64,000 nt of DNA, from contig JAKSTL010000001.1 in the NCBI GenBank assembly GCA_024402595.1, forward strand, positions 62,001 through 126,000. The letters run 5' to 3'. Position 1 is the stretch's first letter, and each line of letters begins with the position of its first letter. This DNA is from Treponema sp. Its GTDB lineage: Bacteria > Spirochaetota > Spirochaetia > Treponematales > Treponemataceae. This document shows positions 14,827 through 51,515 of the stretch, one piece after another. Under the pieces are notes generated by a model. It searched no databases. It saw only the letters and a program-made list of their open reading frames with translations, and was not told the origin of the DNA. Made by a program: the position numbers and the translations under genes.

Positions 14827-16038
14827 ATGATAAAGACTTTCTATAAAATAATTCGTTTCAGTTTTTTTGGGCTTTTGTTTGGCCTTTGTTTTTTTGGATG
14901 CAAAAAGTCTAAAACTGTAAATATTGCCTTTTATTCTGCGGATGAAAAAGTTGAAAATACCCTTAAAAATATGCTTGAAGATAATTTTTTGGAAGATGAT
15001 ACTGCCATCAATTTTTTTACGCTTTCTTCCAATGATGTGTTAGACGAAACTTTTGTGAAAAAAAATAAAATTGATTTAGTTTTTACAGCGGCGGGTAATT
15101 CATTAAAAAATGCACTTTTATTGGCGGATGAATCTTATGGAGTTTCTGAAGACTTAACTTCCGAAATGTTTGGTTCTATGAAAGAAGCTTCTTATATAAA
15201 AAATAACAAAGCAATTGCCTTACCTCTGTGCATTGACCATCTGGAAGTTTGTATTGATTCTCAAGCTTTTATGGATTCTGAAATACCAGCTATAAATACC
15301 TGGAAAGATGTAGAAAACTTTTGTCGTCTGCAAAAAAAAGAAATTGATTTTCCAATTGCTTTTGAAAGTCAGGATTCTGTTTTCTTTATTGATATGATTG
15401 GCGCCCTTGGTGAAGCTCTTTGTGGTTATGATGCTTATACCAAAGCAGTTGATATTCTTGCAGGAAATGATTTTTCTGGTGAAAACTTTAATGCTAACAA
15501 AATTACCGAGCAATTGTTTTGGACAGAAAATGCGCCTTTTGCTCAAGTTTATGTTTTTTTAAGAAATATGTATGGCGAAAAACTTATAAACCCTTCTGTT
15601 CGGGAGTTTTCTTCTTATGATGTAGATTTTTTGATTCAAGAACGAAAAGCAAGGGTTGTGTTAACTAGTCTTTCCAAGCACCGTGGATATAACACAAAAG
15701 GCATTTCCAGATTCAGTACGATTTATGTACCATCCACCTTTTTGCCGGTGCAAAGACATTTTACCGCCAATGCCACTTATGTTTTACCAACGAGCAATAA
15801 TTCTAAAAACCCTCTGCTAATTGAAAAATTATTATCTCCAGATGCACAAGGAGATTTTTCACGAAAAACAGGTCTTTCTCCTGTTCTTTCCAATTGTAGA
15901 ACTCCCGACAAACAATCTTCCGATGTTCGTTACTGGATTGCGGCAACCAATGCTCCTTTGGCAGGACTTGGTCATGAAGCAAACCTTTCTGTAAAACAAC
16001 TGGACATTTTGCGAGATGAAATCCTAGGGATGTTCTAG
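14827..16038 (+). CDS. Solute-binding-protein-like lipoprotein, partner of giant 1
   Basis: A 403-residue exported protein. I prefer the ATG at 14827 because it starts directly with a lipoprotein signal (MIKTFYK...GLCFFGC, Cys about residue 23). An in-frame TTG at 14785 would add 14 polar residues. Neither start has a good Shine-Dalgarno. The mature part begins VNIAFYSADEK and ends with a TGLSPVxxNC block like the GxxPV region of family 1 (MalE-type) extracellular solute-binding proteins. It is a clear paralogue of the protein at 50193-51515: shared blocks include IAFYxxD, LSxHR, IYxPS, TGLSPV, QSxDVRYWxAA. It is divergent from a giant lipoprotein in the same way. No permease or ATPase genes lie nearby, so transport is unproven. 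A receptor, sensor or assembly role for the neighbouring giant is possible. It converges on recR with only 5 bp between stop codons. Confidence 0.8.
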   Translation: MIKTFYKIIRFSFFGLLFGLCFFGCKKSKTVNIAFYSADEKVENTLKNMLEDNFLEDDTAINFFTLSSNDVLDETFVKKNKIDLVFTAAGNSLKNALLLADESYGVSEDLTSEMFGSMKEASYIKNNKAIALPLCIDHLEVCIDSQAFMDSEIPAINTWKDVENFCRLQKKEIDFPIAFESQDSVFFIDMIGALGEALCGYDAYTKAVDILAGNDFSGENFNANKITEQLFWTENAPFAQVYVFLRNMYGEKLINPSVREFSSYDVDFLIQERKARVVLTSLSKHRGYNTKGISRFSTIYVPSTFLPVQRHFTANATYVLPTSNNSKNPLLIEKLLSPDAQGDFSRKTGLSPVLSNCRTPDKQSSDVRYWIAATNAPLAGLGHEANLSVKQLDILRDEILGMF

Positions 16039-16043
16039 AGTTT

Positions 16044-16652
16044 TTACTCTACAGGAACTCGGCCCCGCAAACTAAAGGCCAAAGTGCGTTTATCAATATA
16101 TTCCAAATCTCCACCCACTGGAATACCGGTAGCCAGACGAGTAACTTTTATGGAAAGTCCGTTTTCTTCAGATTGTTCTTTTATCAATTTGTTCAGATAA
16201 AGAGCTGTTGCGTCACCTTCTACCGTAGGATTTGTAGCAACTATTACTTCTGTCACTTCCCCGCTTTGCAGTCTTGTCAAAAGTGGTTGAAAAGAAAGCT
16301 GAGCAGGTCCAATTCCTTCCAAAGGTTTTATTAAGCCACCAAGCACATGAAAAAGACCTTTGTACTCTCCATAAGCTTCGATGGTGGAAACATCCTGAGG
16401 CTGTTCTACAACACAAATCTGTTTTTTATCTCGCAAAGGATTTGAACAAATTGGACATGGGTCTTCTTCCGTCCAAGTTCCACAGATTGAACAAGGCTTT
16501 ACCTTTTCTTTTAAAATAGACAGATTTTTTGAAAAACGCTGCAAATAAACTTCATCCTGACGCAAAAGCCAGTTTACAATGCGAACTGCACTTTTCTTGC
16601 CAATGCCGGGAAGTCTTGAAAAATTGTTGGTTAAATCTTCAAATGCACTCAT
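16044..16652 (-). CDS. recR: Recombination mediator RecR
   Basis: A 202-residue protein, normal length for RecR, which works with RecO (and RecF) to load RecA at gaps. The N-terminal helix-hairpin-helix part reads LPGIGKKSA (residues about 14-22). A four-cysteine zinc motif follows (CSICG...CPIC, about 57-72). The Toprim domain (about 79-175) contains VVEQPQDV and the conserved GxxxGLxHVLGG region. The C-terminus has the GIPVGGDLEYID block typical of the family. It is the last gene of dnaX-ybaB-recR, 16 bp after ybaB. No Shine-Dalgarno is visible before the ATG, so its translation may depend on the preceding gene. Family assignment is secure. Confidence 0.97.
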   Translation of the reverse strand: MSAFEDLTNNFSRLPGIGKKSAVRIVNWLLRQDEVYLQRFSKNLSILKEKVKPCSICGTWTEEDPCPICSNPLRDKKQICVVEQPQDVSTIEAYGEYKGLFHVLGGLIKPLEGIGPAQLSFQPLLTRLQSGEVTEVIVATNPTVEGDATALYLNKLIKEQSEENGLSIKVTRLATGIPVGGDLEYIDKRTLAFSLRGRVPVE

Positions 16653-16668
16653 AAATAAAACTTAATAA

Positions 16669-16980
16669 TTACAAACCAAATTGTGATAAATCCATTCCGC
16701 CCAAAAGCGATGTTGTTTTTTCTTTAATCTTAGCCTGTACATTTTCCATAGCATCGTTGTGAGCAGCAACAATCAAATCTTCCAGCATCTGAACATCCCG
16801 ATTATCTACACAAATTGGATCCAATTTTATGCTTTTCATTTCAAACTGTCCATTCAAAGTTACAGTTACCATTCTACCACCCGAAGAACCTTCCGCTGTA
16901 ATTTCTGCCAGTTCCGCTTTTATTTTTTCTGATTGTTCTTTTAATGCCTGTGTGTTTTTTAATAATTCAAATGGATTCAT
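16669..16980 (-). CDS. ybaB: YbaB/EbfC nucleoid-associated DNA-binding protein
   Basis: A 103-residue protein of the YbaB/EbfC family, small dimeric DNA-binding proteins. EbfC of Borrelia binds DNA and affects gene expression. The sequence shows the expected organisation: an N-terminal helix with NPFELLKNTQALKEQ, the strand region GGRMVTVTLNGQFEMKSIKLDP, and a C-terminal amphipathic helix containing NDAMENVQAKIKEKT. A Shine-Dalgarno AGGGGA precedes the ATG. The position between dnaX (36 bp upstream) and recR (16 bp downstream) is the conserved bacterial arrangement and supports the call. Confidence 0.95.
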   Translation of the reverse strand: MNPFELLKNTQALKEQSEKIKAELAEITAEGSSGGRMVTVTLNGQFEMKSIKLDPICVDNRDVQMLEDLIVAAHNDAMENVQAKIKEKTTSLLGGMDLSQFGL

Positions 16981-17016
16981 AATTTCCCCTTTTTGTCTTT
17001 TCTGTGTATAAATTAT

Positions 17017-19092
17017 CTAGTGCTTACCAGTAACAATATTTCCTCTAAAAACATCCAGTAAAATCTTAACCTGTTCCGGTATTTCTACTGCGGTTTTTTC
17101 CTGCTGATTCTGCTGAAGTTTTACATTAAATGACATTGGTTTTCCACAAACTCTGGAAATCTCTTTAGAAATAGTCTGTATATTTTTTTGCAACAGTGAA
17201 AAATTGTAAGAACTATCTACGGTTGTATCTACAGAATCTGAACCAATATGCCAGTCACCAGTTTTGTCCAAAGTTGTAGCTACAAATCCATCACTTACCG
17301 CCAAAGTAGCCATTACATTTCCCTTTAATTGTGCTACAGACATTGTACGCCCATCGTTAGTGGTAAAAGTTTCGTTCAATTGAGCCTGATTACTGACCGA
17401 AGAAAACATTTTGTCTTCAGCATTAGCATAAGCTTCGTAAGTTTGTTCAACCTGCTCCTGTACAAACTCATAATCCTGTGTTGGATTACTTTCATCTTCT
17501 GGAGGAGTTGCGGCATCTGACCAATCTTCTTCGCTATCTGGATTCAATGTATATTCAGAAGGCGAACTTGCTGTTGGTATATAGGCAGAAGGCACAATTC
17601 CTTCGCTTGTGATATTAGCTTCGGGAATATGCAGCTTTAATCTTTCATCAATAACCTTTGGCTCGTTTTCAGAATTATTATTTTGTTCTGATGTCTGCCC
17701 CACTGATTGTTCAGGCGGCAGTGGACCGCCATTAAGAAAAGGGCCGTTTTCCTCTGGATTTTCTGGCTCCGAATCTTCTTCCGCATTTAGACCAGATAAT
17801 CTTGGTAAACCATTGGGAATTGGTTGACTTACATTTTCGGATGAATTGGAAACTGTATTTTCGGAAGCTTGAACCGATGCCATTTGACTAGACGACATCT
17901 GATTAGCTGGCATTTGGTTGTATGCCATTTCGCCTTTTGGAGCAGTTCCATTCATTAAAAGTCCATGAGCGGCATCTATAGCTTTTTTTACTTCTGCACT
18001 AGAAACATAATCTTTAAGCCAGCACAAACGGGAAAAAGCTAATTCCAATTCGTAGCGAGGAGACAAAGAATAACGAATATCTCTATAAAGCTGTAAATAT
18101 AACGACAATGCCCGTTCAATCTGAACTGTATTCCAAACTTTTAAAACCTCTGAGCTGTATCGTTCTACAGAATTACCCAAAAGCGATTCTTTTGTAATTC
18201 CAGATTTTATTAAAAGCAAGCTACGCAAATAGTCGGCAGAGTTTGAAATTATCTGTTCAATTGAAACTCCAGCCTGTAAAAACTCGTCTAAAACCGAAAG
18301 AACCTGTTCTGTTTTACCAGCAACACAAGCTTCAAAAATAGAATTAAGTCTTTCTACTCCAACTAAACCAAGCTTATCTCGAATCTTTTCGTAAGTAATA
18401 TGACCATCACTAAAAGCAACTACCTGATCAAAAAGAGTGTAGGCATCTCGCATAGAACCTGTAGATTCTCTTGCAACCCAGAACAATGCTTCATCATCAG
18501 CTTGAATACCAAGTTCTGCGGCCGCTTCTGCCAAACAGGTTTTTACTTTTTCTACACTTACTAATCTAAAATTGTACTGCTGACATCGTGATTTTATAGT
18601 TGCAGGTACTTTTTGAAGTTCCGTTGTGGCAAAAATAAAAATTACATACTCTGGCGGCTCTTCAATGGTTTTTAACAATGCATTAAACGCCGAAGTAGAA
18701 AGCATATGAACTTCGTCGATTATGTAAATCTTATAGCGGGAGTTTGCAGGAGGAAACATTACCTCGTCTTTAATTTGACGGATATTTTCAACACTGGTAT
18801 TTGAGGCACCATCTATTTCAATTACATCAAGACTGGAACCTTTTGTAATTTCCAGACAGTTTGAACATTTTCCACAAGGTTTATCTGCTGGTCCTTCCTG
18901 ACAATTCAATGCCTTTGCAAGAATACGGGCTGTTGAAGTTTTTCCACAACCTCTTGGTCCTGCAAAAAGGTAAGCATGAGCAATTTTCCCTGTTTTTATT
19001 GAGTTTTTAAGCGTCTCGGCAACAAACTCCTGACCCACAAGATCATCAAATTGTTGAGGACGACGCCTAGTAGCAGTTACTTCGTAAGACAT
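17017..19092 (-). CDS. dnaX: DNA polymerase III subunits gamma/tau
   Basis: A 691-residue clamp-loader subunit. The start MSYEVTATRRRPQQFDDLVGQE matches the family's conserved first residues. The AAA+ module has Walker A GPRGCGKT (about residues 45-52), a zinc-binding cysteine cluster (C...CGKCSNC, about 64-82), the DEVHMLS Walker B region, and TIKSRCQQYNF at sensor 1 and the arginine finger. The oligomerisation domain III ends near residue 370 (LELAFSRLCWLKDY). A long low-complexity acidic linker (about 395-560), rich in Ser, Asn, Gln, Glu and Pro, leads to a C-terminal tau domain (about 575-691) that would contact the polymerase. An A7 run at the end of domain III could permit a shorter gamma form. 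No Shine-Dalgarno is visible; a TATAAT lies 6 nt before the ATG. Second-to-last core gene before ybaB and recR. Confidence 0.97.
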   Translation of the reverse strand: MSYEVTATRRRPQQFDDLVGQEFVAETLKNSIKTGKIAHAYLFAGPRGCGKTSTARILAKALNCQEGPADKPCGKCSNCLEITKGSSLDVIEIDGASNTSVENIRQIKDEVMFPPANSRYKIYIIDEVHMLSTSAFNALLKTIEEPPEYVIFIFATTELQKVPATIKSRCQQYNFRLVSVEKVKTCLAEAAAELGIQADDEALFWVARESTGSMRDAYTLFDQVVAFSDGHITYEKIRDKLGLVGVERLNSIFEACVAGKTEQVLSVLDEFLQAGVSIEQIISNSADYLRSLLLIKSGITKESLLGNSVERYSSEVLKVWNTVQIERALSLYLQLYRDIRYSLSPRYELELAFSRLCWLKDYVSSAEVKKAIDAAHGLLMNGTAPKGEMAYNQMPANQMSSSQMASVQASENTVSNSSENVSQPIPNGLPRLSGLNAEEDSEPENPEENGPFLNGGPLPPEQSVGQTSEQNNNSENEPKVIDERLKLHIPEANITSEGIVPSAYIPTASSPSEYTLNPDSEEDWSDAATPPEDESNPTQDYEFVQEQVEQTYEAYANAEDKMFSSVSNQAQLNETFTTNDGRTMSVAQLKGNVMATLAVSDGFVATTLDKTGDWHIGSDSVDTTVDSSYNFSLLQKNIQTISKEISRVCGKPMSFNVKLQQNQQEKTAVEIPEQVKILLDVFRGNIVTGKH
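17983..17989 (-). other. A7 slippage tract at the end of dnaX domain III
   Basis: On the coding strand the codons GTA AAA AAA GCT form seven consecutive A residues at about codon 369. A -1 shift, or gain of one A, would add 26 codons and then a stop. Loss of one A gives AAG CTA TAG, an almost immediate stop. Either event would release a gamma-like product ending close to the domain III boundary. In an AT-rich genome the run may be chance. Confidence 0.3.
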
Positions 19093-19104
19093 TGGTTAAT
19101 TATA
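19093..19104 (-). promoter_or_regulatory. Possible internal -10 (TATAAT) before dnaX
   Basis: A perfect TATAAT (19104-19099 on the minus strand) ends 6 nt before the dnaX ATG. No convincing -35 is present. If used, transcription would begin at or next to the start codon. The same spacing is seen at 24804. Confidence 0.3.
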
Positions 19105-19124
19105 CAGTTAAAAAGGCCTAGTTT

Positions 19125-21170
19125 CTAGTTAAATCTTTTGCTCAACATACGAACACTGTTTAAAACTGCAAGAATTGTAACACCCACATCACCAAAAACT
19201 GCCAGCCACATATTTGTAATACCAAAAGCCGATAAAATTAAAATAAGAGCCTTTATTCCAAGAGAACCAATAAGATTCTGATGAACTATATGCAAAGTTT
19301 TTCTACTGAGCTTTATTCCTTCCACAATTTTAGAAGGCATATCTTCCATGATTATAATATCAGCGGCTTCCACTGCGGCATCACTACCCATAGCGCCCAT
19401 TGCAATACCAGCGTCTGCTCTTGCCAAAACAGGAGCATCGTTGATTCCGTCTCCCGCAAAGATTAAAGTGCCTTTCTTTTTTCCATTTTTTACTAGTGAT
19501 GCAAGAAGTTCTTCCACTTTTGCCAGTTTATCTCCACTTAAAAGTTCACCGTAAGCTTTATGCAAACCAAGTCGTTCAGCAACAGTCATAGCGGCTTTAT
19601 GATTATCACCGGTGAGCATAACAATATTTTCTACACCAACCTTTTTAAGTCCATTAATGGTTGCTTCCGAATCATCTTTAATTTCATCACTAATAACAAT
19701 ATGACCAGCGTATACTCCATTACATGCCACATGAACTACAGTTCCATCCTGATGTTCCAGACAATTATCATATTGAATATTAAACTGATTCATAAGCTTA
19801 ATGTTTCCGGCCAGAACCTCTTTTCCATTAACAATGGCTTTTATACCTTTACCAGCAATTTCTTCTACATTTTCCAACTTAACTTCATCACAGCATTTGT
19901 CGTGGTGAGCGGCTTTTAAACTAGCTGAAATTGGATGTGTAGAAAACATTTCTGTATGAGTTGCAATAGCAAGAAGTTCATTTTCCGAAATTGTTGAATC
20001 TGTTGCATGAATATGAGTTACAACAAAGTTTCCTTTTGTTAAAGTTCCAGTTTTATCAAAAACAGCAATTCTTGCCTTTGCCAAAGCTTCTATGTAAGTG
20101 CTGCCTTTTATTAAAACTCCGTGGCGGGCACAAGCGGTAATTCCTCCACAGAAAGTTAGTGGAATAGAAATAACCAATGCACAAGGGCAACTAACAACAA
20201 GGAACATTAATGCACGATAAACCCATACACTCCAGTTGGAAGTCCAATCCCAATTACCAGACATAAAACCAATTACAAGACTTGGAATAAGGGCTAAGGC
20301 AATTGCGGCAAAAACTACAATTGGAGTATAAACTCGGGCAAAACGGGTAACAAACTGTTCTGATTTTGTTTTATTTTCTGTTGCATTTTCTACCAGTTCA
20401 AGGATTCTACTTAAAGCAGAATCTCCGGCCATTTTTGTTGTACGGATTTCTAGAACGCCTTGAGTATTGATGGAACCAGATAAAACTTCATCGCCAACTC
20501 GTACGCGACGTGGAATACTTTCGCCTGTTAATGCTGATGCATCTACAAAGCTTTCTCCATCAACTACAACACCATCAATTGGGATTCTGTCTCCTGGTTT
20601 TACAATAATTACAGAGCCTTCCTCAACTTCATCAGGCTGTTTTTCTACATCACCAGCTTCGGTTTTTACAGTTGCGTGATCTGGTCGAAGTTTTGAGATT
20701 TCTTCTATGGCATCTCGTGATTTATCTACGGCAAAATCTTCGAACTTTTCACCAATCTGATAAAGAATCATAATTACGGCTGCTTCTTCATATTTTCCAA
20801 GAAGTATGGCTCCCACAGACGAAATTGACATTAAAAACTCTTCGTCAAAAAAATCACCGTGAATTGCATTGTGGATTGCACTTATTAAAATGTTTTTTCC
20901 ACAGATAATAAAAGCGGCAAAGTAAAAAACAAGCTCTAAAGCTTCAAAAATAATTTCATTCAGTTGGGGAAGCCAAGTTTGTAAAGGTAAATGTTCTGCT
21001 ATCATTCCACAGGCAAAAAGAATTGCGGCAACAATGATTTTTTTTACGCTGAGTTCTTCTTCGTGTTCGTGGTTATGTTCATGATTGTGTTCGTGTGTAT
21101 ATTCGTGATCATGATTGTGATGAGTATGTTTGTGATGATTTTCTTCCTGGATTTCTTCGGTAGGTTCCAT
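19125..21170 (-). CDS. P1B-type heavy-metal efflux ATPase with His-rich N-terminus
   Basis: A 681-residue membrane pump of the ZntA/CadA branch of P1B ATPases (Zn2+, Cd2+ or Pb2+ export). Instead of an HMA domain, the first 40 residues are a His/Glu-rich tail (HHKHTHHNHDHEYTHEH...) that could bind metal. It is followed by two N-terminal helices. Visible motifs in order: TGES in the actuator (about 216), CPC in the transmembrane metal site (about 327), DKTG with the phosphorylated Asp (about 370), the HP dipeptide (about 412), and GDGINDAP (about 576). A Shine-Dalgarno AAGGAAA precedes the ATG. It sits 28 bp after a sirtuin gene and 32 bp before dnaX on the same strand, an unusual neighbourhood. 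A paralogue lies at 56700-58625. Metal specificity cannot be read reliably from the sequence. Confidence 0.93.
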   Translation of the reverse strand: MEPTEEIQEENHHKHTHHNHDHEYTHEHNHEHNHEHEEELSVKKIIVAAILFACGMIAEHLPLQTWLPQLNEIIFEALELVFYFAAFIICGKNILISAIHNAIHGDFFDEEFLMSISSVGAILLGKYEEAAVIMILYQIGEKFEDFAVDKSRDAIEEISKLRPDHATVKTEAGDVEKQPDEVEEGSVIIVKPGDRIPIDGVVVDGESFVDASALTGESIPRRVRVGDEVLSGSINTQGVLEIRTTKMAGDSALSRILELVENATENKTKSEQFVTRFARVYTPIVVFAAIALALIPSLVIGFMSGNWDWTSNWSVWVYRALMFLVVSCPCALVISIPLTFCGGITACARHGVLIKGSTYIEALAKARIAVFDKTGTLTKGNFVVTHIHATDSTISENELLAIATHTEMFSTHPISASLKAAHHDKCCDEVKLENVEEIAGKGIKAIVNGKEVLAGNIKLMNQFNIQYDNCLEHQDGTVVHVACNGVYAGHIVISDEIKDDSEATINGLKKVGVENIVMLTGDNHKAAMTVAERLGLHKAYGELLSGDKLAKVEELLASLVKNGKKKGTLIFAGDGINDAPVLARADAGIAMGAMGSDAAVEAADIIIMEDMPSKIVEGIKLSRKTLHIVHQNLIGSLGIKALILILSAFGITNMWLAVFGDVGVTILAVLNSVRMLSKRFN

Positions 21171-21198
21171 TTTTTATTTTCCTTAATTCTTAACTTGT

Positions 21199-21942
21199 TT
21201 ACTTCTTTACAACAATTTGGTCTAATACTTCGCCAATTGGTTCGTGAATAACTAAATCGCAGTGAATATCCTGAGAAGTAACTGATTTATTCAACATAAC
21301 CAGATTTTTTCCTTTGAAATAGCGAATGAATCCTGCGGCGGGATAAACATTTAGAGAAGTTCCACCAATAATCAATGTGTCTGCCTGGGAAATTGCTTTT
21401 ACTGCATTGTCTACAATTTCATCATTCAGGCCTTCCTGATACAAAACTACATCTGGTTTTACCAATTCGCCACATTTTGTACAAAGAGGCAATTTTTTTG
21501 GATGATTTTCGCTGTCCAAAATAAACTGAACATCATAGGAAGCATGACAGCCTGTACAATAATTGCGCAAAGTGCTTCCGTGTAATTCATAAACAACTTT
21601 GCTACCCGCCATTTGATGTAAACCGTCGATATTTTGAGTAACAATGGCTTTTAATTTTCCAGCGGCTTCCAGTTCTGCCAATTTAAAATGAGCTTTATTT
21701 GGTTTTATTCCAACGGGCAGTAATTTTGCACGATAAAAGCGATAGAACTCTTTTGTATCTCTATAAAAAAAACTTCGGCTTACAATTTCTTCGGGAGGAT
21801 AATCCCATTCCTGATTATAAAGGCCGTCCATGCTTCTAAAATCTGGAATCCCGGATTCTGTAGAAACACCAGCGCCTCCGAAAAAAACTATGTTGGAAGA
21901 TTCATCTATTATGTTTTGAAGTTTTTCTATTTTTTCATTCAT
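21199..21942 (-). CDS. cobB: NAD-dependent protein deacylase (sirtuin)
   Basis: A 247-residue Sir2-family enzyme, expected to remove acyl groups from lysines using NAD+. It shows the Rossmann NAD motif GAGVSTESGIPDFR (about residues 22-35), the QNIDGLHQ motif, and the catalytic His in ELHGS. Four zinc cysteines lie in YCTGC and LCTKC. It also has GTSLNVYPAAG near the C-terminus. I chose the ATG at 21942 because AGGA lies about 8 nt upstream. The in-frame ATG at 21963 has no ribosome binding site. It is the first gene of a run continuing through the metal ATPase to dnaX-ybaB-recR. Confidence 0.93.
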   Translation of the reverse strand: MNEKIEKLQNIIDESSNIVFFGGAGVSTESGIPDFRSMDGLYNQEWDYPPEEIVSRSFFYRDTKEFYRFYRAKLLPVGIKPNKAHFKLAELEAAGKLKAIVTQNIDGLHQMAGSKVVYELHGSTLRNYCTGCHASYDVQFILDSENHPKKLPLCTKCGELVKPDVVLYQEGLNDEIVDNAVKAISQADTLIIGGTSLNVYPAAGFIRYFKGKNLVMLNKSVTSQDIHCDLVIHEPIGEVLDQIVVKK

Positions 21943-22032
21943 AAAAAATCCTGTAAGTGTCATTCTGAACTACAAACTGTCATCTCAAACCAATTTTGGG
22001 AGAGTCACTAACAAAAATTGTTCATTCTGTTG

Positions 22033-23568: not shown

Positions 23569-23634
23569 AATTATTTCCTTTTGTTTAAGTTCTATATGTT
23601 CTTTATGCTTATCTGTTTTATCTGTTATTTCTGA

Positions 23635-24804: not shown

Positions 24805-24810
24805 ACTTGA

Positions 24811-24840
24811 ATTATATTCTTCCTATAGTTAGTTACGCAA
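24811..24840 (-). promoter_or_regulatory. Sigma-70-like promoter of the CE2-like esterase gene
   Basis: On the minus strand TTGCGT (24840-24835) is followed after 18 bp by a perfect TATAAT (24816-24811). The ATG begins 6 nt further on, so the expected transcription start coincides with the start codon. Confidence 0.5.
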
Positions 24841-24996
24841 GAGAAAAACCTCTTATACTTTGGATGATGAATCATAAGAAAAATTATCATAGAAAAGAGT
24901 TTATTTGCCACCTTAACAAATTATTATATTTTTTTCTCTTCCATTCCATCACATAATCCATTAGACTTAACTATATTAAATAAAAGGAATTAAAAA

Positions 24997-25449
24997 ATGA
25001 AAAAATCTATTATTCTCATTCTGTTCTTGGTTGCAGTTACTAATTTAACTTTCGCAAAATCATCAAAAAAAGAAAAAGTTTCCGAATCCGTACCAAAAGA
25101 TTCTCTCTGTTTTTTCCAGATTACAGAAGCTTCCACTGCCGATGATGTAAAAAAAGTCGCAAAGAAATATAGCGAAATCGCCCAAACCGCCGAAGAATTA
25201 TCTTTCCAAAACCTCAAAATCGAAGGCATTACATACCAAAACGCAACCTTCCATTTTGCATCTGATGGTACCGTGGATTCTATACAAACATGGCTCTCAC
25301 AAGATACCGACCCTGACCTTATTGACCAAAAACTCCTCAACAGCTACTCATACAATTCTGCTTTATCTCGCTACACAGCCCAAAATGGTGAATATCTTAC
25401 TTACAATCGAATGAATGGCCAGTATCTTTTCCGCTATTTCTTTAATTAG
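24997..25449 (+). CDS. Small secreted protein of unknown function
   Basis: A 150-residue protein with a Sec signal peptide (MKKSIILILFLVAVTNLTFA, cleavage after about residue 20). A Shine-Dalgarno AAGGA lies 8 nt before the ATG. The mature part has a predicted helix with many Lys, Asp and Glu residues (ADDVKKVAKKYSEIAQTAEEL), then a beta-rich region with repeated Tyr (SYSYNSALSRYTAQNGEYLTYNRMNGQYLFRYFF). I do not recognise a family. It is transcribed divergently from the esterase gene and followed by a structured intergenic region. Its codon usage resembles its neighbours, so it appears to be a resident gene. Confidence 0.75.
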   Translation: MKKSIILILFLVAVTNLTFAKSSKKEKVSESVPKDSLCFFQITEASTADDVKKVAKKYSEIAQTAEELSFQNLKIEGITYQNATFHFASDGTVDSIQTWLSQDTDPDLIDQKLLNSYSYNSALSRYTAQNGEYLTYNRMNGQYLFRYFFN

Positions 25450-25502
25450 CCCATACTTCCCTCGTTTTTTCTAATAAAATTATTCCCGCTAATACGGCGT
25501 CC

Positions 25503-48000: not shown

Positions 48001-49911
48001 CTCTGGTGGCAATGTATCGTTGGTAATCATTACGGAAGACTGGCTAGAAAGTCCGGCTCGTGTTAGGGTGGCCTGAATTATAACATTGAACTCTTCTTTT
48101 CCAATCTGCTCGATTACGGAAGTTGGGAGGGTGAAGCTATAAGATACACCGTATTTCTGTCCATTTTTTTCTGGTGTTGAAAGGGTGATTTTGTTGCTTG
48201 CACTTTCGGTTGAAGCAAATGGGGCTGTGTCTGTGGAATCGATATATGCATCAATCTGAAGAATATCTGGATTATAAACGACAAAACCTGCAAAATCTAC
48301 GGCGGCGTTACTTGCAATTGTAACTGCTGATTTTTCTGGTGAGGTTACTGTAATTGTTGGTGGCGTTGAGTTTGCTGGTATAAACTTTATGGCAAAGGTG
48401 TCTTGATTATGAACTTCTACGCCTTTTGTATCAAAACCAATTACATCAACTATAAAATAATGGCCTGTTTCTAGACCTTCTATCAATTCGGAGTTTAGAG
48501 TGAAAGACATTGAATAAGTATCTGTACCAACTGTAATCTGCTCGTCGTGGGCATTTTGGTTTTCGAACTTATTTACAAAGTCTGTTGGATTTCCAGAAGC
48601 ATTTGTATATGGATACAAAAGATATATTTCGTTTTCGTAGTTTCCATTTTTGTTGCGAAGGGCTGTACCTGTGGCATCGGATTCTATGAGGCGCAAACCA
48701 ATTGTATCGACAATAAGTGGATCGCCGTCCAAACCTTGGGCAATTGTAACTGTAAGCTTGTCACGGTCACGGAAACCATAGATTTCGTCGCTGTTGGCAT
48801 CAATTTCGTCCAAAGTTTCATAGGCTGGATTTACTACAAAAGAGGAGTAATTTGTAAGTTTATATGTTGGGTTATTTACAGGGTTTAATGAAAAAGTTGC
48901 ATATTCTGTTCTTAACTGATCGCGATTAACATACCAGTTTACATAATCATTATAGATTTCATTTTGAATACAAGAATCTGCATTGCGGTTTATATCATAG
49001 GTTTTGAGGACATCATCGGTAAAAACTGAACCTTCGGTAGCAAGAACTGTATAGGCTGTGTTTGCGAAGAAGGTTTTCTTTGAATTGGTGTTGGCATCTC
49101 CGGCTAGGTAGAAATATTCGGCGCCATTTCCTTTATCATCAGCTTCGGCAGGGAGTTTTCGTGCTGAATCGTAAACAATAAGTTTACAATAGTAATTTTT
49201 GGTAATGTTTGCTTTTTCTGTTCCATAAATAAGTTCATAGAACTCATCTTCGTCTATAGAGGAATCCCAAACGGCAACTTCATTTTCAATGTCTTTTCCT
49301 GTGATGTGGATATTTTTTCTTCCTAATTCCACATGATTTTCGTCATAAACAATTACATCAACGGAATCAACCTGGCTGTCGTCACCTGTGGATGCTCGAA
49401 TACTGAAAACTTGTCCACATTTTGTTGGATTTGATATTGCTGTGGTTTTTGGAGTGGTTAAAATCACTACTGGAGGTGTGTTATCTATACTGAAAACCTG
49501 TGTAGCTTCGGTTGAATGACCGTATTGGTCGGTGGCAGTGGCAGTTGCGGTATAGTCGCCATCGGGAATCTTGTGTTTTCCGTCTGCATAAAGAGTTGTA
49601 ATCAAACAATCCCAAGTGCCGTCTTTATTAAGAACTGCTACATTATCGGCTTCGAACTGGGCTTTTGTTTCCTTATTTTCAAGAACAACTTTTATGTCTT
49701 TTAGACCATAATCATCATAATATGTTCCGGACATTGTAAAATCGCCACGAACATAATACTTTGGCAATGGATTTTTAATACTAACCTCTGGCGGCTGCGT
49801 ATCAATTGCATTTCCAAGACCAATTGTGATATCACCATTACAAGTTGTAAAACCAAATAATGATAATAATACGATGAACAAACAACTTAATTTAATACTA
49901 CCTTTTTTCAT
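27055..49911 (-). CDS. Giant Ig-like repeat lipoprotein, copy 2 (7618 aa)
   Basis: A single intact frame of 22.9 kb. The start is supported by AGGGGA 7 nt before the ATG and a lipoprotein signal ending LSLFGFTTC. Layout: lipobox; a first Ig-like domain; a head (about residues 120-480, with YATFSLNPVNNPTYK); then dozens of Ig-like repeats of about 90-100 residues to about 5650. These are arranged in long-period units: KGHV blocks recur near 45.74, 42.26, 38.03 and 34.58 kb. The C-terminal 1900 residues differ. They include an EF-hand/dockerin-like loop DVNKDGLFDSADISLLKAML (about 6126-6146), a second DLNGDSKYEASE loop (about 6665), an IPT/TIG-like domain (about 7065-7150), and a final region rich in Tyr, Trp and Asp (about 7205-7618) that may be a beta-propeller. 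The protein is presumably an envelope filament or adhesin. Paralogue of 1-14553. Confidence 0.95.
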   Translation of the reverse strand: MKKGSIKLSCLFIVLLSLFGFTTCNGDITIGLGNAIDTQPPEVSIKNPLPKYYVRGDFTMSGTYYDDYGLKDIKVVLENKETKAQFEADNVAVLNKDGTWDCLITTLYADGKHKIPDGDYTATATATDQYGHSTEATQVFSIDNTPPVVILTTPKTTAISNPTKCGQVFSIRASTGDDSQVDSVDVIVYDENHVELGRKNIHITGKDIENEVAVWDSSIDEDEFYELIYGTEKANITKNYYCKLIVYDSARKLPAEADDKGNGAEYFYLAGDANTNSKKTFFANTAYTVLATEGSVFTDDVLKTYDINRNADSCIQNEIYNDYVNWYVNRDQLRTEYATFSLNPVNNPTYKLTNYSSFVVNPAYETLDEIDANSDEIYGFRDRDKLTVTIAQGLDGDPLIVDTIGLRLIESDATGTALRNKNGNYENEIYLLYPYTNASGNPTDFVNKFENQNAHDEQITVGTDTYSMSFTLNSELIEGLETGHYFIVDVIGFDTKGVEVHNQDTFAIKFIPANSTPPTITVTSPEKSAVTIASNAAVDFAGFVVYNPDILQIDAYIDSTDTAPFASTESASNKITLSTPEKNGQKYGVSYSFTLPTSVIEQIGKEEFNVIIQATLTRAGLSSQSSVMITNDTLPPEFGDYEVSPYIDETELVNNLPVTTRYVNGNVKATINISDDITVKPSVTYSLDNGETWSEVQKTNKLIISSISTTDIAEKGKKTILLKAQDDAGNQSENTIELNVKQSTDEPVVNLSNADGTLTTEAHIAAIQKNIFGTSTNNQINGTITDDDGIKSVKVRYKKVGAPDDSAIEEPQTLNFKEGDKSYNLKYTIPADMIGTYQMTILVEDTNAETSYSSKVYGPFAIAVDNGTPQLTATTSSGAYQAANASFTISGTVTDEADKIIIGCYEDAAYTTRIAGTSDITITNTQNGIWSFAIPTTDLGGNVYIKATDAYGQSIKKEFTYLIDAYAPTFAITQLNQGETYSSASGDVMRYASRNSVYTVKGSVTDLTGDAIKDASASGIEDYIYYIVSESQPQIENGAYIITDNWEKAVVTTSVSGEKTWVANIDLSPKNADNSDVFQEGSTYKVYFAAKDKAQNISKVSENATSKVLSLYLDSYAPRLAKVEHETKNAITNIKVYTKDVESGIASIKLIMNRNTSEIAAQKQAEPVTIDGETYDVYVFNQVQTIFVDDSVNEYTVSITDKAGNTTNSASYSINNTKPTISVTNPLTNNARAGEYYFTKEAFTVPFAASSTGNGLSFVTLVINDEESQKDSLTDDPTSYTGEYTISVPTESGKFDAEFIATNIYASTAKSLVKYIFDLDSPEFGMVSADSSSIVNKTIGGTAVVEGFNQNNINYINGNNTLSLNGVLVDGGSDVDLQSGISSVKYKIFKGHYVGTAEKSAYELAEDAVLADESVLEKDWTLTTGSTNWNLKNDFTADGDYSLFLRAEDNVGNVSYSKPILLISDKTAPVLSELKSKIGDASKEPLASVINLNCTKPITISGKIAEALSGVSKIELNEDDGTLITTATISGDEWTGTISAEKLVAFRGEEDSTVTIKITASDKVGNISSYSTFLKLDMTAPELSITGVSPTVEVGGVTKVNGTITVNGVANDETGIAEIRWFYDYDETNTDYTTVENQKIECSGTYKNYNITIDTTKFTTAAQTTAKDVELTVVAIDTVGNITVKEETLHVDQTTDAPMITFSNADETIDDIKNVKQGVNLFSPSNNNRVLGTITDDDGIETVKISYKMLRARSWNDPTTIEVGGKTSYSLNYTLPATEGPYELLVEVADSKNDSTGYSTKETSFAFAVDSGAPVFAVSTTSGAYRAANANLTINGSWSDGTSIVVARYNDSTCTGTPEAVSGAEGSSIVINNDGTWSDTFLVGEEDGAKYYKATDQYEQSTDVSFTYKVDATPPTFSVLSKGGSESEGKTYAKKSEFFAINGTAEDPRPANGTESGLEEFIYYTISRTEPAKVNGAYTNLDNWTKANIVKSDSGSTWSFTVNLSTGYTEGTEYGLYLAAKDVAGNVSKIEENEYSNKIIIVPDGTAPVITEVSGAPIQIIASTGGNLVFQATVNDEVSGIEKVYLYENNQDTEYEATLDGNKYTFAVPTSASRLTTGHHTFEIKAQDKVGNIGTSSSIEIDVDKQIPTVSINNVTPIVKENAKTFEGHSVTAATVNGILTLNLIASDETALSSIELSYINKNGETIRRPSEGLNGTYKAYSFELDSRELKEKEVTAITVVSKDRGGNISEPDVYYLYTDQDTDKPVINLAAPLNETKNAQSQISSKPENNLFKTSGAISGTITDDDGIKEITVFVGDSETPVLTDDRNTTPTSCTFEYTLSSLGITEVGEYKIRIAVKDIYSDTITSGSSTTQEIWIGADDEAPSLLLENTRDEYLKNGKYYAKGESFTISATVKDDYKLDSLEYTSTGSEPEAISIVKDSTQQTKTVVVTPAESKAVVYNFKVKDKFGKSTEQSMSFVYDLDAPTIALANTNPVTTNNSVKLTPVEDVYYYDLSKKIKIAGTAADAGSVTTKDFQSGVASVEYAVAKGHVSEKPADGESIIVDWTNANGTNASWNLELDGEVISAEGNYTVFVRTTDFAGNTTALSSPVKIAADSGKPAIAIKEVNTNTQTALNQYYNLETVNAADNKLVIKGTISEKFLKAYTVNVTKDGSSIATAFDSSLKLYGDDGYSTEQEWTITLDASSDHSDDGLYEITLTATDYSTNEGTLIASTRIDTTAPLLDSSNTTIGNQDLSQVNNYWFTNALINFAGQYLEAGSGIKQLDYYIKKPGENFSAARSGSFTVTDFGNYESFSTTLSSFVSSVGKDSHNGIMLRAIDYAGNITDNTFVIKLDESAPVLSDTKYKLGTGTETALGSIINTKATESVFLSGKYEETVSGLKSIKITGRGFTGDDAIIATVDENNNWAAEITKTKLDALRNGTDGSYAVKITTEDNAGNKNDSAVSFNIYIDKTAPDLSITGVSPTVEVGGVTKVNGTITVNGVANDETGIAEIRWFYNHTGTDYTAVSGQKIECSGTYKNYSITIDTTDFTKAEQTAKDVELTVVAIDTVGNITVKEETLHVDQTTDAPMITFSNADESIDDIKNVTQGVNLFSPSNNNRVLGTITDDDGIETVTVSYKKLSDSDLDSDLDSDSNWTTRTLISDYGKTSYSLNYTLPAEEGKYELKVVVADSKQDSTGYNAKSTVFKLAVDAGAPVFNLTTASGAYRAAKASLTINGSWSDGAAVVVGRYADSTCTGNAETLSTATESSIVLANDGKWTDTITIGITDATKYYKAVDEYGQSTIISFQYLVDALPPTFTVTNIGGTTVGETTYTKKGEYFTVKGTVKDTTPERGVASGIEDFIYYTVATAEPAKTTDETVYTNLDSWTKANIVKGDSGNTWTINVDMSSDEYAEKTSYGLYIAARDVAGNVSLISANSGSNSIKVQPDGTGPEISSAAADITQIVAATTGSVTLSATVSDSISGIKAVRLYKNNVDTNIALDESSSGTTYVFKLPVSDFATGHHTYVIRATDNVGNATDSSTIEIDVDKQAPTLALNSAIPSVTVGEATKYNGKVTISGIATDETGLKEIRWFVTKPADGLATYYKTFANATYAPIENQVVAVAETEKTYKNFSFTIDTTQLDDQKTSTVTVVAVDKAGNISGTKTWSLAVDESTDKPKITLDAPFVNSADAPIVSGTNLFKTTDSISLSMSDDDGLATINIYKDGSTTPVKTESLGGVTSATKTYKIKDDLGISSVGEYTLRVEIVDSNPDGYDNAASTTTQTIKIGVDDAKPSISLATDLDSKKYINNKYYTNSNFKITAKVDDDYLLSTLTATNGTAGSSLSTATTEEQSIEYSIIKTETSSSVTNTFVVTDKFANTNQESVTYVFDLDVPTIALATNPVKTNTTALNVESGVYYYDLNKNIIISGTAKDEGVEDGSTKDFQSDISAVKYLIAKGHVASVPTSAEEIFKDWTEASGTKDWNVKLDSEIISAENEGEYTVFVKVEDKAGNEASISPIKIVADKASPVIEVTTTVPEYYNNTMASAGVVISGKITESYLKEIKVTATKDGAVINNFAFTKTPVTGTTKQTSPQAWSVTIPKAGGKYVVTVTAKDYCGNSASPVSFTTTVDIDAPTFTLTSPIVVSDAVTVYGKKSAPYTVKGTVADTGLSKVAGLYYKLATSAPAISNGVYTENVTNENGWTQITSAAGSWTNYIDLSGESFVEGTNYVLYLAAVDNAGNKSVVANNPTAKLNIMLDSNGPTFNAFTKSVDNATPKIELVTKVIDEGSGLESVTLYNNDSPVTIDGTKITRAASTETIGGKSYSVYTYTFDSDENGYISAIPDGTNEYKVVAIDKAGNSTTYTTTQTIKNATPTLTVAFPDAFSSNYSATVSGKKYTYATGTFNISGTATVTEAETLKSVVWSDGTTSNGSVGTITENTEKTEGSFVFAATAVSTNENERITNRITATNIFGKSTSEQLLYIFDTTKPVIVEENTTIGGQSIENLAAHWFNTTAIAVKGEYTEAGSGIEKLEYWIKVPGGTYTTDSTGTIVPSDKGTYEAFNSTITDFVTSTATANNTIKLVATDKAGNVSDAKEYTVKVDLGKPELSAMKYKLGDDEESAISGTLYMNAEQALTLSGSFDDALSGVDSVKVQFTEAKTVVATLDKTTKKWTVSLTKDELKALAGGDSPEDVSLSPVVTATDKAGNSKDYTISMKIDVTNPTLPVPSYSPTVTEKVDDVSTVYVNGIISISGTASDTTGIKEITLYKVVDDSDDVLLKQNTYTDSAFVSYGFNQDTRDLTDNAETKLKIVVTDKVGNTNNAVVTLNVKQSTDTPTIALTSPLFNSNENPVAVNNNLFKTTDSIEFTVKDDDGVGSIKVLVNDGEVQTFENINSTSVTKALSLSELGITKAGEYTVQVYAEDTNPDNRSTLVAEQKTETLKINIGVDDKNPTVKLSTSVSTSKLKENVYYTNEAFTITAKVDDDYLLSNLTATDGTTDSSLDTTSTDEQTIIYTIAKPEASVKTTNTFVVKDKFNKSEQADITYVFDLDKPTIALATENAVKTNEKALSAVSGVYYYDLNKNIIINGTAAETGSTAIQSGLSSVMYGIAKGHVTTWPASNENIVQDYTSALGTADNWNLKIDGQTISEEGEYSIFVKVADLAGNTTVLASPVHIAADKLSPVIAITKVNDEAASTLNNFYNRNVVIEGTLAETYLKAVTLKVNGTETDFTTAPVTGTKKTAAQTWKYTLSSATEGEYTIEVIAEDQVGNKVSEVYKTTIDRTRPRLDTANTKIGNVKVVAAEGEDSVDNHWFTAEAFEISGQYVEELSGISSLSYWIQKPGESYSTEATGVIVPSDTGTIETFKTTISGFAESSGSSHNKIKFVAVDKAGNESDTNEYTIKIDEQKPELTELKYDVGENGSVLANETLGSLILTNKTNAITLKGNYNDNASGVTKITVSCSAFDGDDAITQYIDASSDALNGTWEATIGDAAFEKLVGTSYSVTITAYDSAGNKNDTKGFELQVDTSAPRTDISSPAKDSTLNGYVTLSGSVEEENTPVSLSLYYFFAENKDVTPTVHASISTADGWKLLKEITTNPGTDDETHDYGANVSDIYGWKISNYYTNGVLESAGVTNGHFFLLPVAVDKAGNSSVDVADIKATDYTSYLIDLDSDRPIIKLSSLTGKTGTLLKYDATVSGSIEDDDGVIKELKISPTPITTEAEWASVAKVTLSSGTFSYSPSDTSDGVKKMYFYIKDAKDGVFITNNETEGRADELYMPKISYKTSDGYSTAVTNNEKVSYTFDSNPPSYTDSYIDYKGIDAEDALSADKATTKIKELTDKVGGKTKQNILIKIAVYDANGIDSVTAKIDGVKEDAGDGTATDVLTMEASGTTTVDGNEYTNYILKINLADVDGIEATKTPAASGGKSVVFTITDKSGISTTTPPVSFTVDNDGPVIGIISPAKSGDVAYTTEDLADANDAEIGVVNIIGTTSDSSEIAEFKYLVLDDKNFDTGATKVKLADNNTDKLTTSWTLNVNGLPGDPTALKDYKTKIVHNTTTDIYAIPVYFYAKDELGNESTLSTYELKYNPYGDRPTVEVTSPGANANLNGTVQIIGSATDNVSIDSVYVQIDVNKDGLFDSADISLLKAMLDPTDGTTSIYTIYNESSTFSKPTPDFTASVKTVAGVESHDDFWGIKANGKASWNLSVNKFKELQCESASQGDGTNKFTLNYRVVAMDNNCKLGNWSEVRSFVIDTNIPQVPTTGTIVGYSDAERTEQTSEKAYAADMFLKTTENYNELQIEISDKSGIQKVEYYTAADIEGLNSATTPAAATIRATDDATSFTSGTNTYYSRVTAKIPLNKLGTTDTLAIKVVAYKNSETETTAYCNYNVNFDDTAPVMDYVSFNGDRVVDVATDENATGQVVNSNGVFTLGGKVTDYGSGFARTLFYYNRPEHGVNPNRVYDPLVAPTTDAAKITYNGIIFVKDAGTMKFGGQTMYGYEGTVTVAADLKTLTLTGNTKEKNIFAGGVVYINGAWLDVASVAKNASGFVTTVVLSEDTLATGAGNVDAFFPYVRVINNTGTEKNGFDSTSTSSAYDDVTDDGDGMPESVIKSQSTWTYDASVRSNFIPDGPGAMVVFVFDKAGNCSAARYDGSVQNNAPRITKLWLGTDLNGDSKYEASEFTSYDILEKAGGEQHSYIMNTADFGGKRFRVLNGLSVVSEFVGGNNANNQGIKLAYNNDASSESVKCVKKADNDSKWYDKKITIGGTTGITAAESFFTASDYSGSGTTGKYGYIIPKDDIGADSTGVITDLTKRSMSFTFWDDTEDSEQGINSGFCYLKINDFAVIQNDNFAPSVTIDPFFWNSADDSSIYQNNYLNGHIDLPAYITGSARKTGAEDDGLYYNGDALVDPKVSGKISIRGKAVDEHTLGKIWASFDGFTPTEAAFGENAKTVDGKTYYCVAYKDDDGAWQTASGSVAGNVWNFSILSDTADQNGNVIAWQLDIDTSGIEGAMGNDKVVRIIAEDQAKPVHSSSIEMTAGAMLEKDLEGNWLNSYDVNKYNVPYYQMDVVPYISGVEGANRSRLGRYPVRAGQTIKITGFNFATSPSVFRKTSAGASSPIPITVTASDSSSITVTAPEYSGYIYAQWGTGDSAVTTPNNDNVDTIGYNIENGYVANTPDAGKSIANAAGKNFWTDDRYLSVWNSGTTFTNSRNPIMGTIERLSNKAYKYEATNKKGPFDDGTLYGYWGGEDNMMWDAVLGGSRTHTSTPDQSDGAFKSPPSQVDTCVINDIPFITFLDDGWEGASTFGRGLSIRRDGEKPTDSIFIEPISTDRYRNQFQNVRIAGSYTSSKYHVYVVYYDAYTKCLKYAKTLYKNNFDQNGSVETKYHTGTSSSGKYVIAGKDTLNEGTESGQYCDIKVTNTAVPIVIYYYKSNGDNGSLAIAKANGSDPSATNFTWDITSLENPSSNIDFGRYVSMEMDSSENLHITAQDVTNGVLYYGCFKADGTKIVDWMKVDATDSVGRWTDIKLEDSENTGLAAKPVITYMSTSKLGTKFAVKVAYLDNSNSFEAITDPSNFEASDQKLSLVLKGRQIDSGNTTIAPIAVGINSTEFAVDFLRDEQ
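40388..40980 (-). repeat. Long-period internal duplication in giant 2, downstream copy
   Basis: This stretch is nearly identical in DNA to 44591-45163, about 4.18 kb away. A run from about 40861 to 40972 matches 45043-45155 essentially base for base (both encode VEVGGVTKVNGTITVNGVAN). The offset changes from 4203 to 4173 bp across a 30-bp insertion near 40451, and to 4182 bp later. Confidence 0.8.
40451..40490 (-). repeat. Short tandem repeat encoding DSDLDSDLDSDS
   Basis: Units of GAATCT/AAATCT (6 and 12 bp) on the plus strand encode an acidic Ser-Asp run. The paralogous segment near 44640 lacks it, and this copy is 10 codons longer. Confidence 0.8.
44591..45163 (-). repeat. Long-period internal duplication in giant 2, upstream copy
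   Basis: Counterpart of 40388-40980. The protein runs from the TDDDGIETV module into the adjoining VEVGGVTKV module. Confidence 0.8.
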
Positions 49912-50192
49912 TGATAATCCCCTGCTTCAATAATCGGAAGTTTAAAATTTAATATAAGTATTATTTTCCCTACAAATTTGTAGAGTTTGAGTGAGACTAG
50001 TTTGTTGTAAAAGAATTAACATACGATCGAATAGATAGGACTCCCACTTTATTTAATACAAATATTATAAATCCAGAAAGTGTATAACGCAATGTTATTG
50101 TTTTATGGAAAGAGTTATTTGAATTGGTTTGAGTGGTAAAAGTCTATGAAAAAACTCTATACTTTAGGAAAATTTTCGGGTAAGTTTAAAAT
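49912..50192. promoter_or_regulatory. Divergent promoter region between giant 2 and its partner
   Basis: A 281-bp AT-rich gap holding both promoters. A perfect 14-bp palindrome CTACAAATTTGTAG lies at 49970-49983, about 60 bp upstream of the giant's ATG. A TATACT at 50159 could be the -10 of the plus-strand gene. No strong -35 is evident for either gene. Confidence 0.4.
49970..49983. promoter_or_regulatory. Perfect 14-bp palindrome, possible operator of giant 2
   Basis: CTACAAATTTGTAG, upstream of a weak TATTAA/TATATT on the minus strand. No matching palindrome is present upstream of giant 1. Operator function is a guess. Confidence 0.25.
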
Positions 50193-51515
50193 ATGAAAAA
50201 AATAAATCCATTATTCGTAATTTTTTTGGGAATTCTTCTGATTGTTATATCTACTGGAGCTGTTATTGGCGGAATTTCTATTGCTCAATACAATCCAAAA
50301 ATTGCCTTTTACAATGTTGATCCGCAAATTCAAAAATCAATTTTAAATTCTTTGAATGAGGAATTTAAAAATAATAAAAAACCTTTTGTTCCACTTGTAC
50401 TTAATTCGGAAATTTCTATTGGAAAGCAGGAAAAACAGTTCAAAAGAGATTTGAAAAAATGCAAACTTTTAATTGCGGAAAATGACATGGAACTTATGGA
50501 ATTTTGCCAGAATTCCACTTTGATTCAAAAAATGAGCGGGAATTTGGTGGAAGGAATGCCATCATCCATAATAAATCCGGAGTCTCGATGCATAGTTTAT
50601 TCCACCGAAAAGGCGACTGAAACTGAAAAAACTATCGATTCAACTTTTGTAAAAACCGTTCCTCTTTTGTTTGATTTTTACCAGATTGATGTGAATTATC
50701 CAATTTACAAAGATTTGAACGCGGCCAATATTGTGACTTGGGCAGATTATATTGATTTTTGTGAAAAGGCAAAAAAAAGTGGAATTACTTCCATCAACTT
50801 GAATGGTAAGGACGAAGCCAATTTTCTGAACTTTTTTGGAACTGTCGCCGAAGCTCTTATTTCGCAGGAAAAATACACCGCCGTTTTGAATAAACTTTAC
50901 GACGCTTACAAAAAAACCTCCCATTTTGATTTTTCTAACGACAATGCCTTTGAAAAATGCCTGACCAATCTTACCAGCCAAAGCGCCTTCAAAGAAAATC
51001 CACAAGAACCAAGTCTTTACCCGGTTGTTCAAGAATTAAAACAATTGTTCAACCGCAACATTCTTCCTCAGAACTTTGAAAACACTTCCACCGAATCTTT
51101 CTACCTGCAACTAAATGAGAATATGTGTGCCTCTGCTTTCCTAAAACTTTCCGACCATCGTAAAATCCAGCGCACCAACATCCAAAATTACAAATCTATT
51201 TATTGTCCTTCAATAGATTACACCACCAACCGCCGTTTTTGCGCCCCGGAAATAATTGCCGCATCATTAACAAAAGATAAAGCTGCTCAGGAAATGATAA
51301 AATGGCTTTGTGTAAATGACCAAACTCGTATAAGCACCGAAACAGGCCTTTCTCCAGTTCAAAAAAATTGTATGGTAGCCGACCAACAATCTGGTGATGT
51401 ACGATACTGGCTTGCCGCTTCTCAGGGACCAGTTTTTCCATTTACAGCGGCAATTCCTGCAAAAGATGCACAATCTCAAGCTTACACCATTTTACTAAAA
51501 GCTATTACCGAATAG
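50193..51515 (+). CDS. Solute-binding-protein-like membrane protein, partner of giant 2
   Basis: A 440-residue paralogue of the protein at 14827-16038. It has no lipobox. The N-terminus (residues about 6-30, PLFVIFLGILLIVISTGAVIGGISI) looks like an uncleaved membrane anchor. The mature region begins PKIAFYNVDPQ, matching VNIAFYSADEK of its paralogue. The C-terminal third shares LSDHRK, IYCPS, TGLSPVQKNC and QQSGDVRYWLAA. The fold is probably that of family 1 extracellular solute-binding proteins. No transporter genes adjoin it. It is divergent from giant 2 and converges with a sigma-54 activator gene 47 bp downstream. The ribosome binding site is weak (GGGTAAG, about 9 nt upstream). Confidence 0.8.
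   Translation: MKKINPLFVIFLGILLIVISTGAVIGGISIAQYNPKIAFYNVDPQIQKSILNSLNEEFKNNKKPFVPLVLNSEISIGKQEKQFKRDLKKCKLLIAENDMELMEFCQNSTLIQKMSGNLVEGMPSSIINPESRCIVYSTEKATETEKTIDSTFVKTVPLLFDFYQIDVNYPIYKDLNAANIVTWADYIDFCEKAKKSGITSINLNGKDEANFLNFFGTVAEALISQEKYTAVLNKLYDAYKKTSHFDFSNDNAFEKCLTNLTSQSAFKENPQEPSLYPVVQELKQLFNRNILPQNFENTSTESFYLQLNENMCASAFLKLSDHRKIQRTNIQNYKSIYCPSIDYTTNRRFCAPEIIAASLTKDKAAQEMIKWLCVNDQTRISTETGLSPVQKNCMVADQQSGDVRYWLAASQGPVFPFTAAIPAKDAQSQAYTILLKAITE

Follow-up and report, generated by a model that had tools for sequence, protein, structure and literature searches.

Two giant genes for lipoproteins built of tandem immunoglobulin (Ig)-like repeats lie on the minus strand of a 64,000-nucleotide stretch of a gut Treponema sp. 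genome (the window; G000:C1:62001-126000, contig JAKSTL010000001.1 of the Treponemataceae assembly GCA_024402595.1, 3.0 Mb, 80.7% complete). Each has a divergent plus-strand gene upstream, its partner, encoding a membrane-anchored protein that resembles a solute-binding protein (SBP). The linkage between giants and partners is well supported, while the mechanism behind it is what we infer. Tentatively, and with somewhat less than even confidence, we propose an ancient spirochete envelope system in which fibres of Ig giants would be combined with a repurposed SBP acting as a periplasmic holdase or anchor. The proposal builds on features read from sequence, namely the architecture of the giants, the SBP fold and N-terminal anchor of the partner, the absence of linked permeases, co-occurrence, recurrent adjacency in every orientation and presence outside the family.

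Giants and partners in the window, the family and the phylum

Giant 1, which we class as type A (window positions 1-14553, minus strand), extends beyond the window on the left, as far as contig position 56061. The N-terminal 4,851 of its 6,830 residues lie in the window, and the frame has zero internal stops; it has a signal peptide ending at Cys25 (...FIFSC), a GLGQAVDTETP motif and Ig-like repeats. Giant 2, also of type A (27055-49911, minus strand, 7,618 residues), has the longest open frame of all listed giants. Partner 1 (14827-16038, plus strand, 403 residues) is a membrane-anchored SBP-fold protein with a possible lipobox and with permease genes absent nearby, and partner 2 (50193-51515, plus strand, 440 residues) is an SBP-like protein with an N-terminal transmembrane (TM) anchor. 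The original prediction placed each partner about 280 bp upstream of its giant, and the divergent intergenic regions measure 273 bp (14554-14826) and 281 bp (49912-50192). The partner motifs on which it based its claim of paralogy can be read in both translations, the giant motifs GLGxAxDTxxP, NPxNNP, DANGID and DNDGP each occur a single time per giant, their order being identical, and the partners are homologous (BLASTP E = 8e-27, 25% identity). When the sequences of both intergenic regions were scanned for a shared promoter or regulatory element, sigma-70-like matches did not exceed those in shuffled sequences, with no notable promoter excess in the 273-bp region, and by eye no obvious common sequence was seen. 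A third partner of the same genome (C147:43884-45122, minus strand) lies 23 bp downstream of a same-strand giant fragment 4,097 residues or more in length, and all three partners found in this assembly (~81% complete) adjoin a giant. The third giant's missing start may lie on contig C155, which has a giant N-terminus at its end; both pieces run off contig ends in compatible orientation, although this is not proven.

We surveyed 195 Treponemataceae genomes, in which true partners (E < 1e-19) stood clearly apart from ordinary SBPs (E > 1e-11), and obtained 139 distinct partners as 95% clusters, with fetched flanks of 9-10 kb. A giant was present within about 9-10 kb of 57 of the 139, and of 44 of the 83 for which both flanks reached 8 kb. 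It was the immediate neighbour in 48 of the 139, in convergent (20), divergent (16), giant-then-partner (7) or partner-then-giant (5) arrangement, and giants were the commonest neighbour family of partners (50 loci; next family 25). Seen from the other side, 31 of the 145 listed giants had a partner within 5 kb, where chance would give about 0.4%, an excess of roughly 50 times expectation (binomial P ~1e-43, phylogenetic dependence ignored). The view that the two genes are more than chance neighbours is therefore upheld, and the linkage is real and ancient. The two families also co-occur, both being found in 113 genomes, the partner only in 6, the giant only in 23 and neither in 53 (Fisher p ~1e-22, with thresholds set by us and genome relatedness ignored), and of the 80 genomes that contain top-scoring giants, 77 also encode a partner. 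Giants are multicopy, while partners number about one per genome. The fixed, divergent one-to-one module that had been predicted was not borne out, since orientation varies freely and multicopy giants stand against about one partner per genome. The related idea that giants mostly lacking the partner would speak against a joint role gave a divided answer: per gene, 114 of the 145 giants are without an adjacent partner, whereas per genome a partner is nearly always present (77/80).

Recurrent partner neighbours besides giants were a DUF4015 lipoprotein, MnmE and two exported proteins, and in L117 and L122 the partner sits between a giant of a second type, B, and an A giant. The DUF4015 protein, about 800 residues long and named here for its putative glycosyl hydrolase domain, lies beside mnmE and the exported proteins (L206:11824-14214, on C147 of the window's own genome, and L052:7330-9831); it is a lipoprotein in many relatives, recurs beside one partner subfamily and is near the type B giant in the own genome. 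Near a partner and a B giant, L089:7242-8714 encodes an exported protein whose HD_5 domain is matched at E = 8e-24; relatives of this protein, about 480 residues long, are found beside partners more often than any other family except the giants.

Duplication of the whole two-gene module, as originally predicted, is contradicted by the trees. Forcing the window partners together on the partner tree was rejected (approximately unbiased (AU) test, p = 1.1e-10), and the giant N-termini of the window were not sisters either, giant 1 forming a long branch; a recent in situ duplication of the pair is excluded by the tree and the AU test. By their placement the two window partners belong to old, separate subfamilies, partner 1 falling among T. 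bryantii-type partners and partner 2 beside those of L086, L071, L079 and others, mostly divergent pairs. At the N-terminus giant 2 clusters with L086 and L127 (support 91), and its C-terminus is nearest those of L087 and L077, whose partners fall in the partner-2 clade and are, in that set, the nearest to partner 2. Because partner 2 and giant 2 both group with genes of the same relatives, pair 2 was, on these trees, clearly inherited as a pair across species, and it is the only pair with clear joint inheritance. Pair 1 is by the same evidence a separate association, the identical layout representing two distinct associations rather than one copied cassette. Over all pairs co-phylogeny was weak (Mantel r = 0.15, p = 0.03; the expected own-genome pair was matched in 16 of 32), and strict co-evolution of a partner with its adjacent giant was accordingly not adopted except for pair 2. 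Adjacency to a giant clusters on the partner tree and changes at least 18 times on it; these changes, together with the four orientations, suggest repeated re-association.

Beyond the family, the conserved C-terminal module of the giants was found in 31 of 138 sampled spirochete genera, and clear partners were confined to the Treponemataceae and two sister-family genomes (L215, L216). Both sister-family partners converge on the 3' end of a giant, across a gap of 55-80 bp. In class-level relatives, to which only the giant module led, an anchored protein of 319-481 residues adjoins an A giant, and in L224, L220 and L223 it stands between A and B giants. These proteins were the best partner-profile matches among all open reading frames of the loci after the two sister-family ones (E = 7e-6 in L224, 1e-3 in L226, 8e-3 in L227 and 0.04 in L220), and those of L220 and L223 are homologous to that of L224 (E ~1e-30); L226, L227 and L220, the weakest matches to the unbiased profile, are judged from sequence to be likely homologues. 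Listed by genome, distant homologues adjoin giants in G325, G377 and G415, and in G200 and G241 through homology to G325. A profile that included distant homologues gave three independent cases, two in G384 and one in G441, 640-820 bp from a giant C-terminus; neither genome was used for profile building, and adjacency there is known from coordinates only. Outside the family, 10 of 16 strong matches lay no more than 5 kb from a giant C-terminus. Within giant genomes, 16 of 49 partner matches were near a giant, compared to 0 of 21 ordinary SBP-like matches, a count that leaves out one weak match in G370 because it may itself be a partner homologue. The 415-residue neighbour in G370 (L232) was not counted as a partner, its score being too weak (E ~5e-4). 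Distant homologues do not keep the invariant residue set of the family and retain essentially only PLLxD and GLxPA stretches. By these results the neighbourhood of partner and giant is old and recurs through the spirochete phylum, in several families, which points to a possible cell-envelope system. Beside the B giant of three class-level genomes there is in addition a protein starting (G)IKLADxSLYPILEEG, possibly Hsp70-domain-like (L220:13330-14313, L223:13929-14948, L224:6637-7659), and the window's own genome has a longer relative of it (L204:9276-12119) some 6 kb away from a giant N-terminus.

Architecture of the giants and the partner

Both giants contain tandem bacterial Ig-like repeats, as long fibrillar adhesins of the Lig or Ca_tandemer kind do, with Big_13, Big_7 and Big_3_2 above Pfam cut-offs in giant 1 and Big_13 and Big_7 in giant 2. 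Giant 1 also exceeds the curated cut-offs for Ca_tandemer, the Ca2+-stabilised adhesin repeat of NCBIfam (NF033510; 64.8 bits, cut-off 50), and for the OmpL47-type domain (NF047446; 73.1 bits, cut-off 40), while the whole-protein Leptospira OmpL47 equivalog NF047441 stayed at 57.9 bits, below its cut-off of 250; compared to proteins of these two domain families, the giants have a lipid-anchored N-terminus and a conserved C-terminal module. Cys25 is invariant in 12 aligned giant N-termini and the GLGxAVD motif is conserved. The conserved N-terminal 300 residues of giant 2 (49012-49911, minus strand) comprise, by alignment, the signal peptide, the invariant Cys, GLGNAIDTQPP and the first Ig-like domain. 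The designation of the giants as lipoproteins thus gains from the invariant signal-peptide Cys, but in giant 2 this Cys is preceded by T-T, an unorthodox lipobox with Thr at -1.

The last ~1,000 residues form the conserved C-terminal module (27058-30057, minus strand, in giant 2), which had zero matches in Pfam, NCBIfam or a PDB sequence search. Its structural model (m2386bb598ffd) had a mean predicted local distance difference test score (pLDDT) of 57, rising to 87 in the part with successive four-stranded blades, and the best Foldseek matches were bacterial sialidase/pseudaminidase, GH43 enzymes and fucose lectins. On account of the blades and these matches we read approximately residues 710-940 of the module as a probable beta-propeller, which is the only usable part of the model.

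Type B giants are shorter (~1,300-2,250 residues), with a signal peptide that has no lipobox, a 'SWQESFD'-like start and Big_7 repeats, and in many genomes they adjoin A giants; the one in the window's own genome lies at C147 ~16,000-22,100. On contig C125 of that genome, three consecutive minus-strand genes (L205:881-12192) encode proteins of 1,129-1,356 residues with signal peptides, one with CEMGTGGSVD, resembling a type A start. Same-strand runs of three or four giants about 10-16 kb apart were also seen (G154:C54:171472-208962, G132:C1:283366-324519, G179:C76:74334-95892), with a partner ~8 kb beyond the run in G179.

LigA and LigB of Leptospira are, by construction, the best-known spirochete relatives, being likewise lipoproteins of tandem Ig-like domains. 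They have 12-13 Ig domains and masses of 128-201 kDa (PMC12183334), whereas the giants reach 6,830-7,618 residues and have a distinct C-terminal module and Big_13/Big_7/Big_3_2 matches.

For the partner, a Pfam search with the sequence of partner 1 alone gave no match, while SBP_bac_8 was matched in 6 of 21 family members (best 2.5e-6), and a profile of these 21 searched against the PDB retrieved SBPs of sugar ATP-binding cassette (ABC) transporters, the best being a pneumococcal sugar-binding protein (E = 2.8e-6). The AlphaFold2 model of partner 1 (pLDDT 93.3) aligned over residues 28-403 with AcbH (3oo9; VIA-align Z 29.6) and showed the two-lobe SBP fold in comparison with many cluster-D SBPs (Z 25-30). 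The partner is thus a genuine cluster-D sugar SBP fold without a transporter of its own: ABC permeases, sought as EAA-motif pairs within 6 kb and expected in MalF/MalG-type linkage, were present at 3 of 139 partner loci. The prediction of an SBP-like protein without a transporter is confirmed by these profile and fold matches, and partners sitting mostly beside permeases, which it took as a sign against itself, are not what was found. A role as the SBP of such an operon was ruled out by the same scarcity and by the permease operons of L127 and L172, which contain their own SBP. A simple hydropathy/lipobox rule assigned a TM segment only to 123 of the 139 N-termini, a possible lipobox to 12 (partner 1 included) and left 4 unclear. 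A cleaved signal peptide or lipobox, as in importer SBPs, is therefore not the rule, and in most cases an uncleaved TM helix anchors the partner. Positions invariant among 50 members include P133, E196, R286, P302, R310, P352, D361, Q363, D366 and R368, and W370 is kept in 46 of the 50. Compared to cluster-D carbohydrate SBPs (AcbH 3oo9, pneumococcal 2heu and MalE-like proteins; SBP_bac_8/SBP_bac_1), which it resembles in profile and two-lobe fold (Z ~29), the partner differs by the missing permeases, by being mostly TM-anchored rather than secreted or lipidated, by the family-specific motifs LSxHR and PDxQxxDxRYW and by its genetic linkage to giants.

A proposed envelope system and its alternatives

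In the envelope system that we propose, type A giants would be lipid-anchored fibres of Ig-like repeats with, most likely, a lectin-like, carbohydrate-binding beta-propeller at the tip, and type B giants would often stand beside them. The partner would derive from a cluster-D sugar SBP after loss of the ABC permease and would sit at the inner membrane, facing the periplasm and anchored by its uncleaved N-terminal helix. There it may act as a dedicated periplasmic binding factor for the giants, a holdase or an anchor during export and assembly, a single partner per cell serving several giants. The surface location of the giants, the function of the propeller and direct contact between partner and giant are proposed roles, and the chaperone or anchor role is the step that we infer from the least evidence. 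Multicopy giants against about one partner per genome, together with co-occurrence, favour such a shared service factor. A wider claim, that this is a phylum-wide and previously undescribed machine in which an SBP stripped of its transporter and fixed in the inner membrane would be an assembly or anchoring factor for giant Ig-fibre lipoproteins of types A and B (~2,000-7,600 residues), is put forward with more reserve. No description of the giant-partner locus was found in the literature searched. To our knowledge, little is established on the export and positioning of several-thousand-residue proteins in spirochetes, or on whether spirochete surfaces bear fibres at all. The giant family, its unnamed C-terminal module and the linked SBP-derived membrane protein offer a concrete, testable gene set and, if the proposal is true, a clear example of how the binding protein of an ABC transporter was taken over for a task other than transport.

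Several observations weigh against the proposed holdase or anchor. More than half of the partners have no giant in the sequence examined, 23 of 136 giant-positive genomes have giants without any partner, and the varied orientation means that there is no constant operon. The overall confidence of the C-terminal model is low, and the weak co-phylogeny does not favour tight one-to-one binding. The invariant charged and aromatic residues of the partner (E196, R286, R310, D361, D366 and R368; W370) could equally form a small-ligand pocket.

The SBP fold and the propeller keep open a glycan-handling role, in which the propeller tip of the giant would bind plant or mucin polysaccharide and the partner would still bind the released oligosaccharide in the periplasm, to deliver it to a shared permease or to serve as a sensor subunit. 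We consider this rather unlikely: the closest partner folds are oligosaccharide SBPs, the propeller is similar to those of lectins, GH43 enzymes and sialidases, the lipoprotein with the putative glycosyl hydrolase domain DUF4015 recurs beside one partner subfamily and the invariant charged set is retained within the partner family, but this set is missing in distant homologues, which retain essentially the PLLxD and GLxPA stretches only, permeases occur near 3 of 139 partners, and sensor kinase or chemoreceptor families were not recognised among recurrent partner neighbours. The permease count also bears on an ordinary ABC-importer SBP with its permease encoded elsewhere, which fits fold and sequence profile and is nevertheless very improbable, given the uncleaved TM anchor of most members, the L127 and L172 operons with their own SBP and the absence of ordinary SBPs near giants (0/21).

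It is improbable, too, that partner and A giants are joined at genome level alone, the partner acting with B giants or with other proteins of the old locus (the DUF4015 propeller lipoprotein, TPR/HD-like proteins) and the A giants being neighbours and not clients. Its recurrence beside the DUF4015 lipoprotein, MnmE and two exported proteins, and its position between B and A giants in L117 and L122, would fit such an arrangement, yet it adjoins the 3' end of an A giant in the sister family and several class-level genomes, and in the three profile-independent cases, as in G377, its neighbour is an A-giant C-terminus. Neutral synteny, with ancestral neighbours still adjacent in the absence of any functional linkage, has a small chance of being correct; it would account for the more than half of partners that are not adjacent, for the clustering of adjacency on the partner tree and for the weak co-phylogeny, whereas the four orientations with at least 18 adjacency changes, the co-absence across genomes and the conservation over several families argue against it.

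Neighbouring genes in the window

Heavy-metal P-type ATPase paralogues flank the giant-2 region (19125-21170 and 56700-58625, both minus strand) and form a second paralogue pair in the window; the former has a His-rich N-terminus and the latter is adjoined by an ArsR-like/AraC-like fusion regulator (59046-59825, plus strand). At 25863-26867 lies an Rpn/PD-(D/E)XK-type nuclease-like protein with GIQQGMQQ repeats, and genes of this kind occur dispersed next to giants and partners in many relatives.

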